NCBI GenBank assembly: GCA_902806405.1
Contig: CADCWL010000078.1
Span: 1-32,570 of the forward strand
Direction of reading: 5' to 3'
DNA: 32,570 nucleotides
DNA from: an uncultured Thermomicrobiales bacterium
Lineage (GTDB): Bacteria; Chloroflexota; Chloroflexia; Thermomicrobiales; UBA6265
The notes beneath the pieces were generated by a model. It was not told where the DNA came from. It saw only the letters and a list, made by a program, of their open reading frames with translations, and made no database searches. The position numbers were made by a program, and so were the translations under genes. Positions 3,438 to 23,428 of the stretch are shown here, piece by piece. Every line of letters begins with the position of its first letter. The stretch's first letter is position 1.

Positions 3438-3776
3438 CTAGGGCACGATCTGCATGGTGAGCGCCTCGTGGGCGTAGGGAACGTGCTCGACAATCTCCTC
3501 GCCGACGATCCGGCCATCACTCATCCGAACGATCCGATCGCACAGACCGCCGACACCGGGGTCGTGGGTCACGAGCACGAAGGTCAGCCCGACCCGGTCG
3601 TTCAGGTCGCGCATCAGGCACATGATCTCGGTCGCCGTCGTCGAGTCGAGCGCGCCGGTCGGCTCGTCGGCCCAGACGATCGCCGGGTCGTTCACGAGCG
3701 CGCGGGCGATGGTGACGCGCTGCCGCTGGCCACCGGAGAGCTCCGCCGGGCGGTGGACGGTCCCGAGGCGACGGCC
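3438..3776 (-). pseudogene. Truncated LolD/MacB-type ABC ATPase, C-terminal half only
   Basis: The C-terminal half of an ABC ATPase of the LolD/MacB/FtsE group: signature LSGGQRQRV, Walker [15 protein letters not shown] and the switch histidine in VTHD are all present, and the gene ends properly with TAG. The Walker A and Q-loop half is missing. Family-like sequence (LGTVHRPAE before the signature) can be followed back only to about 3770; beyond it the opposite strand codes for the end of an unrelated glutaredoxin-like protein. Without Walker A it could not bind ATP. It lies directly upstream of the FtsX-like permease and was presumably its partner before the break. Either a genomic deletion/rearrangement or a wrong contig join explains this. 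Confidence 0.75.
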
Positions 3777-3896
3777 CGCTACCGGACCGGCACCTTCGCG
3801 ACGCCGCTGCTCGTCGTCGGCGACCGGTCGGTGCTCGGCCTTCGGCCCGACGAGACCGCGGCGGCCCTGGCCGATCGGGGCGTCCCGGCCCCGTGA
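3755..3896 (+). pseudogene. C-terminal remnant of a glutaredoxin/thioredoxin-like protein
   Basis: On the plus strand a frame ending TGA at 3894-3896 encodes a tail with [13 protein letters not shown] followed by [15 protein letters not shown]. This resembles the cis-proline strand (TP), the beta-hairpin and the last helix of glutaredoxin-like proteins. No start codon or CxxC motif belongs to it, because at about 3755-3776 it runs into the truncated ABC ATPase coded on the other strand. It is read as a gene cut at the same breakpoint. The assignment is from the short motif only. The 198 bases after it up to 4094 hold no gene; a weak -10-like GATACT lies at about 4046-4051, ahead of the next gene. 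Confidence 0.4.
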
Positions 3897-4094: not shown

Positions 4095-5315
4095 ATGATC
4101 CTCGAGACGCTGGATCTCGACCCCGCGGAGCTGGAGCGGCGCACGGGCTGGCAGATCAAGCCCCAGGGGGCCTGCAAGGGGGAGCGGTGCGTGCCGCTGC
4201 CGGCCGCGGGCGGGGGGCGGGTCGATGCGCGGCTGCTCGCCGAGCGACTGGGCATGCCGCTCGTGCGCGACGAGCCGAGCGGACTCTGGTGCCTGGGGCC
4301 CGAGGCCGGCGGGCGGGCGCTCGCGGACGTGCGGGCCCCCGACCTGGAGCTGCCCGACGTCCACGGCCGGGCGTTCCGCCTACGCTCGCTGCGGGGCCGC
4401 AAGGTGCTGCTCGTCGCCTGGGCTTCCTGGTGAGGCTGCCGGCGTGATCTGCCCGTGTGGCAGGGGCTGCACGCCGAGCTCGGCCCCCGCGGCCTGGCGA
4501 TCGTCACCGTGGCCCTCGACACCGAAGGCGCGGAGGCCGCCCGGCCGTGGATCGAGGCGGCCAAACCGGAGCACCCCTCGCTGGTCGACCGGGCGCACGT
4601 CGTGGACGAGCTGTTCGGGATCGCCAACGTGCCGAGCGGGGTCTGGATCGACGAGGAGGGCGCCATCGTGCGCCCCCCCGAGACCGCGTACCCGGCCCAC
4701 CCCAACTACGGGGACCGGGCGATCCCGCCGGGTGCCTCGGCCCGGGAGGCGGCCGAGATCGCGGAGGTGAGGAAGCTGCGGACGGAGCCGGAGGCGTACG
4801 TCGCCGCCCTCCGCGACTGGGTGGAGCACGGGGCACGGAGCCGTTTCGTCCTCCCGCCCGGGGAGGTGCTGCGCCGGAGCCGCCCGCGCCCCCCCGAGGA
4901 GGCCCGGGCGGCGGCCCACTTCGAGCTCGGCCAGCACCTGCACCGCCTGGGCCGGGCCGAGGACGCCGTCCGCCATTTCCGGGAGGCGTACCGGCTGCAG
5001 CCCGACAACTGGACCTACAAGCGCCAGGCCTGGGATCTGCTCGAACCGCACCGGAGCCCGCTCGAGGTCTACGGGGGCGACTGGCTGACCGACGTCCGGA
5101 AGATCGGCGCCGAGATCGACTACCCCCCGCTCGACCTCTCGGGGCGCCGGGCCCAATCGGTGGCCTCTGCGCCGCTCCCGGGGGATCAGGCGCGCCAAAG
5201 TCGATCCCGTCACCCCGGCCGACGTCCTCGCCCTCTGCCAGCCCGACCGCGTCTGCTCCCAGGCGATGGTCCTCCGCCTGGTCGATCGCAAACCCCTTCC
5301 CGCCGGGACGGGTGA
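4095..5315 (+). CDS. Candidate selenoprotein: thioredoxin-fold (AhpC/TSA, TlpA-like) protein with C-terminal TPR
   Basis: ATG at 4095 follows a GGGAGGCGGGGCGG ribosome site. Reading through an in-frame TGA at 4431-4433 (codon 113) gives about 406 residues. Residues 1-75 form a small domain with [12 protein letters not shown]. Residues 78-230 are a redoxin fold ([14 protein letters not shown], then [22 protein letters not shown]), continuing with a conserved-looking domain ([20 protein letters not shown]). TGA stands where redoxins carry their first active-site Cys, giving U-G-C. A single TPR unit lies at about 276-310. Clear protein character ends near PPLDL (about 5134); the last 55 residues are low-complexity and may lie beyond a lost stop. 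It probably reduces disulfides or peroxides in the cytoplasm, as no signal peptide is seen. If TGA is not recoded, this is a pseudogene. No selA/B/C/D gene is in the window. Confidence 0.65.
4431..4476 (+). promoter_or_regulatory. Candidate Sec codon and bacterial SECIS hairpin
   Basis: TGA at 4431-4433 is followed by a compound stem. Seven perfect base pairs CGGCGTG/CACGCCG (4440-4446 with 4470-4476) enclose an internal loop and an apical 5-bp stem CTGCC/GGCAG (4449-4453 with 4459-4463). The apical loop is CGTGT and starts 20 nt after the TGA. Bacterial SECIS elements bound by SelB are expected as a stem-loop just downstream of UGA, with the apical loop roughly 16-37 nt away and a G in its first two positions; the second loop base here is G. 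In a sequence this GC-rich, chance hairpins are common, so the fit is supportive rather than decisive. Confidence 0.5.
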
Positions 5316-22274: not shown

Positions 22275-22334
22275 TCAGGTCTATCGGATTCCAGACGTGG
22301 ATATTTTGAGCGGGACCTATTGGCGCCGAGGGAT

Positions 22335-22374
22335 GGGCAACGAGCGGTCCCGGCGCCGGGACCGCTCGTTGCCC
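22335..22374 (+). repeat. Perfect 40-bp palindrome in the 5' leader
   Basis: Twenty bases (22335-22354) are followed directly by their exact complement (22355-22374). It lies some 60 bases after the promoter and 55 bases before the GTG start, so the mRNA leader would fold into a near-continuous 18-bp stem. It could stop transcription before the gene, protect the mRNA, or mark a boundary. No T-tract follows. Confidence 0.75.
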
Positions 22375-22429
22375 CGACCGACCGCTTTGCCTGAGCCGTC
22401 GCCAGCGATCGAATCGACAGGAGACCTTC

Positions 22430-23428
22430 GTGGGTATCGACCGACTCGACCGCCGCCGCTTCCTTGGGGGAACGGCGGTCTTTGCCGCCGCCGCGTCCGG
22501 CCTCGCCGCCCAGACGGCCCGGCCCGACGCGACCCCGACGGCCGCCCCGGTCGGCTCCCTCGCCCAGCAGACCTTCTACCGAACCGTCCCGGTCGAGGGG
22601 GTCAATGTCTTCTACCGGGAGGCAGGCGACCCCCGGAACCCGACCATCCTGCTCCTCCACGGCTTCCCCTCCTCGTCGCACATGTTCCGCGACCTGATCC
22701 CCCTTCTGGCCGACCGCTTCCACCTGGTCGCCCCCGACTACCCCGGCTTCGGTCGGAGCGATGCCCCAAGCCCGGCCGACTTCGCCTACACCTTCGACCG
22801 TCTGGCCGACGTGGTGGAAGGCTTCCTCTGCGCGCTCGCGATCGATCGCTTCAGCCTCTACGTCCAGGACTACGGCGCGCCGGTCGGCTACCGGCTCGCC
22901 ACCCGTCACCCGGATCGGATCGAGGCGATCGTCAGCCAGAACGGCAACGCATACGGGGAGGGCTTGACGCCGTTCTGGGACCAACTCCGGCCCTATTGGG
23001 CGGATCCGTCTCCAGCGAACGAGGCGCCGTTGCGCGCACTGCTCACCCGCGAGACGACGATCTTTCAGTAAACGGAGGGGTACCGTGACCCCTCGCGAAT
23101 CAGCCCGGACGCGTGGACGACCGACCAATTGTTCCTCGACCGCCCCGGAAACCAGGAGATCCAGCTCGCCCTGTTCTACGACTATCGGACCAACGTCGCG
23201 GCCTATCCCGCCTGGCACGCCTACTTCCGCGAGCGGCGACCGCCCCTGCTCGCGGTCTGGGGCCGGAACGACCCCATCTTCGGCCCGGACGGCGCCCGTG
23301 CTTTTGCCCGCGACCTCCCGGACGCCGAGATTCACCTGCTCGACACCGGCCATTTCGCGTTGGAGGACCACGCTCACGCGATCGGCGGGCACATCGACCG
23401 GTTCTACCGAGACCGGGTCGGCCCCTAG
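22430..23428 (+). pseudogene. Tat-exported alpha/beta hydrolase (haloalkane dehalogenase/epoxide hydrolase-like), interrupted by in-frame TAA
   Basis: GTG 22430 after AGGAGA. The N-terminus RRRFLGGTAVFAAAASG is a twin-arginine signal peptide. The alpha/beta hydrolase fold follows: LLLHGFPSSSHMFRDL (75-90), DYPGFGRSD and the nucleophile elbow VQDYGAPVG with Asp147, as in haloalkane dehalogenases and epoxide hydrolases; acid region WGRNDPIFG and catalytic His in TGHFALEDH near the end. Codon 214 (23069-23071) is TAA in TIFQ-stop-TEGYRDPSRI, where relatives usually have Tyr (FQYTEG); TAC to TAA explains it. Frame is preserved to TAG at 23426-23428. As written it would give a 213-residue protein without the catalytic His. 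Nonsense mutation or base error. Confidence 0.85.

Follow-up and report, generated by a model that had tools for sequence, protein, structure and literature searches.

A predicted U-G-C selenoprotein of the WAxxUGC family and its conserved SECIS-type hairpin in an uncultured Thermomicrobiales bacterium

The window analysed here, a stretch of 32,570 nucleotides from an uncultured Thermomicrobiales bacterium, carries on its plus strand, at 4095-5315, a gene that forms a single open frame when the TGA at 4431-4433 is translated as U. The translated chain starts with MILETLDLD at 4095, U is residue 113, and the next stop lies at 5313-5315, which bears out the continuous frame on both sides of the TGA described in an earlier note made from the raw sequence. 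The family core (residues 1-348; 4095-5138) matches the NCBIfam equivalog NF041054 (WAxxUGC_long, 'ResA-like WAxxUGC motif-containing protein') over residues 1-347, on profile positions 1-353 of 354, with 538.3 bits vs. a cut-off of 300, and relatives of up to 84% identity end where the core ends. The WAxx-U-GC motif of this family reads WASW-TGA-GC in the window and WAxW/Y-TGA-(G/S)C in relatives. The core comprises an N-terminal domain (residues 1-76; 4095-4322) with two cysteines, Cys27 and Cys32, that are conserved without exception in both the Sec and the Cys forms (alignments A2 and A3), a ResA/TlpA-like thioredoxin-fold domain (residues 79-194; 4329-4676) with the active site W-U-G-C, and a TPR repeat (residues 272-305; 4908-5009; Pfam TPR_2, 28.5 bits vs. 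a cut-off of 27). A profile search with the read-through chain matched Pfam AhpC-TSA at residues 80-191 (3.3e-13), and the TGA falls at the position of the catalytic Cys of AhpC/TSA redoxins; its placement by the earlier note at the first catalytic Cys agrees with both the AhpC-TSA and the NF041054 matches.

The AlphaFold model of the protein, in which U was modelled as Cys, has a pLDDT of 85.8 and a pTM of 0.84. Its middle domain (79-194) matches ResA (1st9) with a Foldseek E of 6.8e-10 at about 25% identity, and ResA and TlpA chains were also matched by sequence. For the N-terminal domain, no Pfam match was found and the sole PDB match (E 0.29) was not significant, so that no identity was assigned to it. 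Inspection by eye revealed no signal peptide, and the protein is probably located in the cytosol.

The C-terminus and the upstream flank of the gene, which comes from a metagenome-type assembly, look disturbed. Relatives end after a YYPPLDL-type terminus, where the window has TCG and continues for about 59 more residues to an ordinary TGA stop at 5313-5315; this apparent extension (5139-5315) is absent from 11 aligned relatives, and it is possible that the family's usual stop was lost or that a base error occurred here. Directly upstream, at 3438-3896, the minus strand encodes an ABC ATPase, C-terminal half only, whose reading loses sense at around 3750; there, the plus strand starts to resemble the end of a glutaredoxin-type protein, an arrangement that looks like a rearrangement or an assembly junction. 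Elsewhere in the same assembly (contig C118; L010, 1509-1792), there is a second near-identical fragment of the selenoprotein gene, about codons 175-267, fused to a gene that resembles one for a sugar-ABC-transporter ATPase and is cut off by the end of the contig; this fragment is likely a strain variant or a chimeric contig. Matches to plasmid records were all partial and fell short of 80% query coverage. Clustering of the flanking ORFs for a conserved operon gave only scattered recurrences (for example, ORFs resembling SDR and phosphotransferase genes, plus blocks specific to Frankia that contain P450-like and SnoaL-like ORFs, all named by eye); no operon partner common to the relatives emerged, and none of these recurrences was seen in the flanks of the window gene.

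The family is present in 13 of 400 genomes of the phylum (this one counted), each copy with exactly one in-frame TGA, located at a WA(S/P)W/Y-U-(G/S)C site (U-S-C in L035). A wider scan of GTDB species genomes yielded 80 loci, mostly from Chloroflexota, Thermomicrobiota and Actinomycetota, the rest including some from Proteobacteria, Verrucomicrobia, Myxococcota and Acidobacteria. Counted with a pattern that accepted only a stop or Cys at the site, this wider set has TGA in 73 distinct segments and TGC or TGT in 19, which are related sequences that share ancestry and are hence not independent events. With a pattern open to Ser, Thr, Ala and Gly as well, none of these was found at the site (11 loci were missed by this pattern, 10 of which were read separately); Rubrobacter marinus (L088), with an apparent frame shift directly before the site, was left out. 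The alignment through codon 113 that the earlier note had proposed thus reads TGA or Cys in the homologues. The tree requires three changes of the Sec/Cys label. Given that the Cys rows L092 and L106 adjoin the Sec rows L094 and L110 with full support, Sec has probably been exchanged for Cys at least once in recent time. An Ilumatobacteraceae genome has three family copies with a TGA in a single locus (L053), two on one strand and the third on the other, and in five Frankia loci (L095, L100, L103, L105 and L111), two Cys-form copies lie near each other with a cytochrome P450-like and a SnoaL-like ORF nearby.

Immediately downstream of the TGA, an apical hairpin at 4448-4464 consists of the stem 4448-4453/4459-4464 and the loop CGTGT (4454-4458), which lies 20 nt past the TGA and has G as its second base. 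With the T of TGA numbered 1, the hairpin spans nucleotides 18-34 (a 6-bp stem and a 5-nt loop), and the consensus of the TGA group is (C/T)(C/T)TGCC - loop - GGC(A/G)(G/A)(G/A). In TGA members, this hairpin hardly varies: of 71 distinct TGA homologues, 99-100% form each of the stem pairs. Across the 73 TGA segments, the loop is CGTGT in 48, CGGGT in 13, GGTCT in 6, AGTGT in 4, and AGTCT and AGTTT in 1 each, that is, of the type N-G-[U/G]-N-U with the second base G and the last base U invariant. Paired changes occur at the two outermost stem pairs: pair 19/33 is C-G in 69 segments and U-A in 4, and pair 18/34 is C-G in 67, U-A in 3, U-G in 2 (one of them the window) and C-C in 1. The covariation test proposed in the earlier note therefore comes out in favour of the apical hairpin, on the strength of the paired changes at 19/33 and 18/34. 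The TGA members also have invariant synonymous sites here: the codon for Leu119 is always CTG or TTG, which together make up 50% of the Leu codons in the same genes.

All five inner pairs are possible in 73 of 73 TGA segments vs. 2 of 19 Cys segments, and in 17 of the 19 Cys segments the hairpin is degraded with the protein retained. One Cys homologue has a six-pair hairpin that still forms, with a different loop, and in the Cys rows L092 and L106, where the protein sequence is DLPLWQ, C takes the place of the loop G. Judged from this conservation pattern, the hairpin at 4448-4464 is a putative bacterial SECIS, a candidate SelB-binding element. The earlier note had proposed a compound hairpin at 4440-4476; its apical loop, 20 nt after the TGA with G in second place, stands, but its lower stem was rejected as a conserved feature, with pairs that form in only 20-87% of TGA homologues. 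Folding energy was likewise set aside as evidence: the z-scores of the window (-1.8 and -1.2) are unremarkable, and the case for the hairpin is therefore one of conservation, not of stability. A search of the window against Rfam at gathering thresholds came back empty.

The assembly to which the window belongs (266 contigs, 91% complete) contains a tRNA-Sec with the anticodon TCA (UCA) on contig C134, selA (487 bits) and selB (322 bits) on contig C237, and selD (352 bits; L036) on contig C168, so that all of the genes selA, selB, selC and selD that the earlier note had suggested looking for are present and the genome should be able to make selenoproteins. This selD has one in-frame TGA of its own (...GAAG-TGA-ASK..., a motif read from the sequence by eye) and, on this reading, is itself a predicted selenoprotein gene. 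A second full-length SelB, adjoining a DAHP-synthase-like gene, is encoded on the 3.5-kb contig C183 (L001) and may be mis-binned, a stray sequence from another organism. Across the phylum, selB is so widespread (311 of 400 genomes) that finding it here says little on its own, and its co-occurrence with the family was dropped as uninformative; one of the 12 other family carriers has no selB match, in an assembly that is fragmented and 86% complete.

We consider the best explanation, with a probability of about 0.96, to be that the gene encodes a selenoprotein of the NF041054 family, a ResA/TlpA-like U-G-C thiol oxidoreductase in which Sec113 would be inserted via the SelB hairpin; on the comparative sequence evidence, the TGA at 4431-4433 is almost certainly read as selenocysteine. 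The sel genes, the exchange between TGA and Cys and the covarying hairpin all support what was the core of the earlier note, a selenoprotein with a U-G-C redox site. Were the gene instead a normal Cys redoxin gene whose TGA arose by nonsense mutation or base error (a pseudogene or a sequencing error), the window would offer a parallel in its alpha/beta-hydrolase gene, really interrupted by TAA, and the selenoprotein gene, without the usual stop of its family, itself runs on. However, dozens of independent assemblies have TGA at this codon, the frame is intact on either side of it and the hairpin is conserved; in the main, the TGA shared by the 73 distinct homologous segments refutes this explanation, which we regard as very improbable. 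The earlier note had counted against its own reading three other genes of the window with plain nonsense stops, an argument that proved weak, since most of the same-frame neighbours examined are separate genes: nuoC/nuoD, TrkH/GH32 and phosphatase/TMEM175 are pairs of separate normal genes, and the only truly interrupted case examined is the alpha/beta-hydrolase at 22310-23428, split by a TAA at 23069-23071 with matching halves on both sides. The same-frame stops in the window do not weaken the selenoprotein call.

An open frame through the TGA would look identical if the codon were read as another residue or if the genome used a different code (e.g., TGA for Trp), but relatives swap the TGA for Cys codons only, in a Cys active site, frames that look coding terminate at TGA in other parts of the window, and the Sec machinery is present, which leaves this explanation with a negligible probability. 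Equally negligible is the case for a true stop, followed by a second protein that starts downstream and works separately from the first: although an ORF at 4455-5315 with a GTG start does exist, Cys homologues run through the site as an unbroken chain, two separate proteins would divide the active site between them, and the GTG at 4455 is part of the conserved hairpin loop, with GGG or GTC in its place in many relatives.

For the predicted selenoprotein, the parts described above suggest that SelB carrying Sec-tRNA(Sec, UCA) would bind the short hairpin directly past the UGA at 4431-4433, and that Sec would be inserted as residue 113. The product would be a ResA/TlpA-like thiol oxidoreductase whose active site, U-G-C, corresponds to a CxxC less one residue. 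By analogy with the chemistry of ResA and TlpA, Sec113 may act as the nucleophile that attacks the substrate (a disulfide, a peroxide or the like), and Cys115 as the resolving residue with which it would form a selenenylsulfide. The C-terminal part, with its TPR, may serve in partner binding. More speculatively, the N-terminal Cys27/Cys32 pair might pass electrons on or bind a metal. That Cys27 and Cys32 serve as an internal relay for reduction of the Sec113-Cys115 selenenylsulfide, which would make the protein a self-contained two-centre selenoenzyme, we consider a rather unlikely elaboration.

The combination of an N-terminal Cys-containing domain, a redoxin domain and a TPR was not known to the earlier note as a described selenoprotein, but it is already catalogued, since NF041054 covers the N-terminal domain, the redoxin and the C-terminal part together and has the U in its name. 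Published accounts of UGC-type Prx/TlpA-like selenoproteins go back to 2008: 'Prx-like (UGC-containing)' selenoproteins are tabulated in a Global Ocean Sampling survey (PMC2398784), and a 'UGC-containing TlpA disulfide reductase family protein' appears in a 2026 review (PMC13188914). From their descriptions in the relevant portions of these two sources, those proteins resemble the window protein in being predicted selenoproteins with a Pfam00578/cd02966 redoxin and a UGC active site; these descriptions do not mention the N-terminal Cys domain and the TPR. No paper using either of the names WAxxUGC and NF041054 was found among the papers searched. What is gained is one more family member and a sharper definition of its SECIS, for which the family is a clean natural experiment (with Cys at the site, the hairpin is lost and the protein is kept), and the case indicates that a genuine selenoprotein can be recognised by unaided reading of raw sequence.

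ResA and TlpA are membrane-anchored proteins with a CxxC active site. The window protein shares with them (PDB 1st9 and 1jfu) a thioredoxin-fold domain of the ResA type at residues 79-194, and differs in its lack of an evident signal peptide, its extra N-terminal domain, its TPR and its active site, which is U-G-C (C-G-C in Cys forms) and one residue shorter than CxxC; it scores 52.4 bits against the NCBIfam ResA model NF002854, vs. a cut-off of 170. Like the SECIS of Escherichia coli fdhF, the window element is a short hairpin directly after the UGA with an apical loop of the N-G-U-N-U type. The E. coli fdhF loop, GGUCU, recurs exactly in six distinct segments of the family, including L034 and L035; the window loop is CGUGU instead, and a conserved bulged U was not seen in the stem. 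With NF041054, the window gene has a full-length match and the U-G-C motif in common, and apart from the lost usual stop and the roughly 59 extra residues, no differences were found; by this comparison of sequences, it is a clear additional member of a catalogued selenoprotein family and not a new class.
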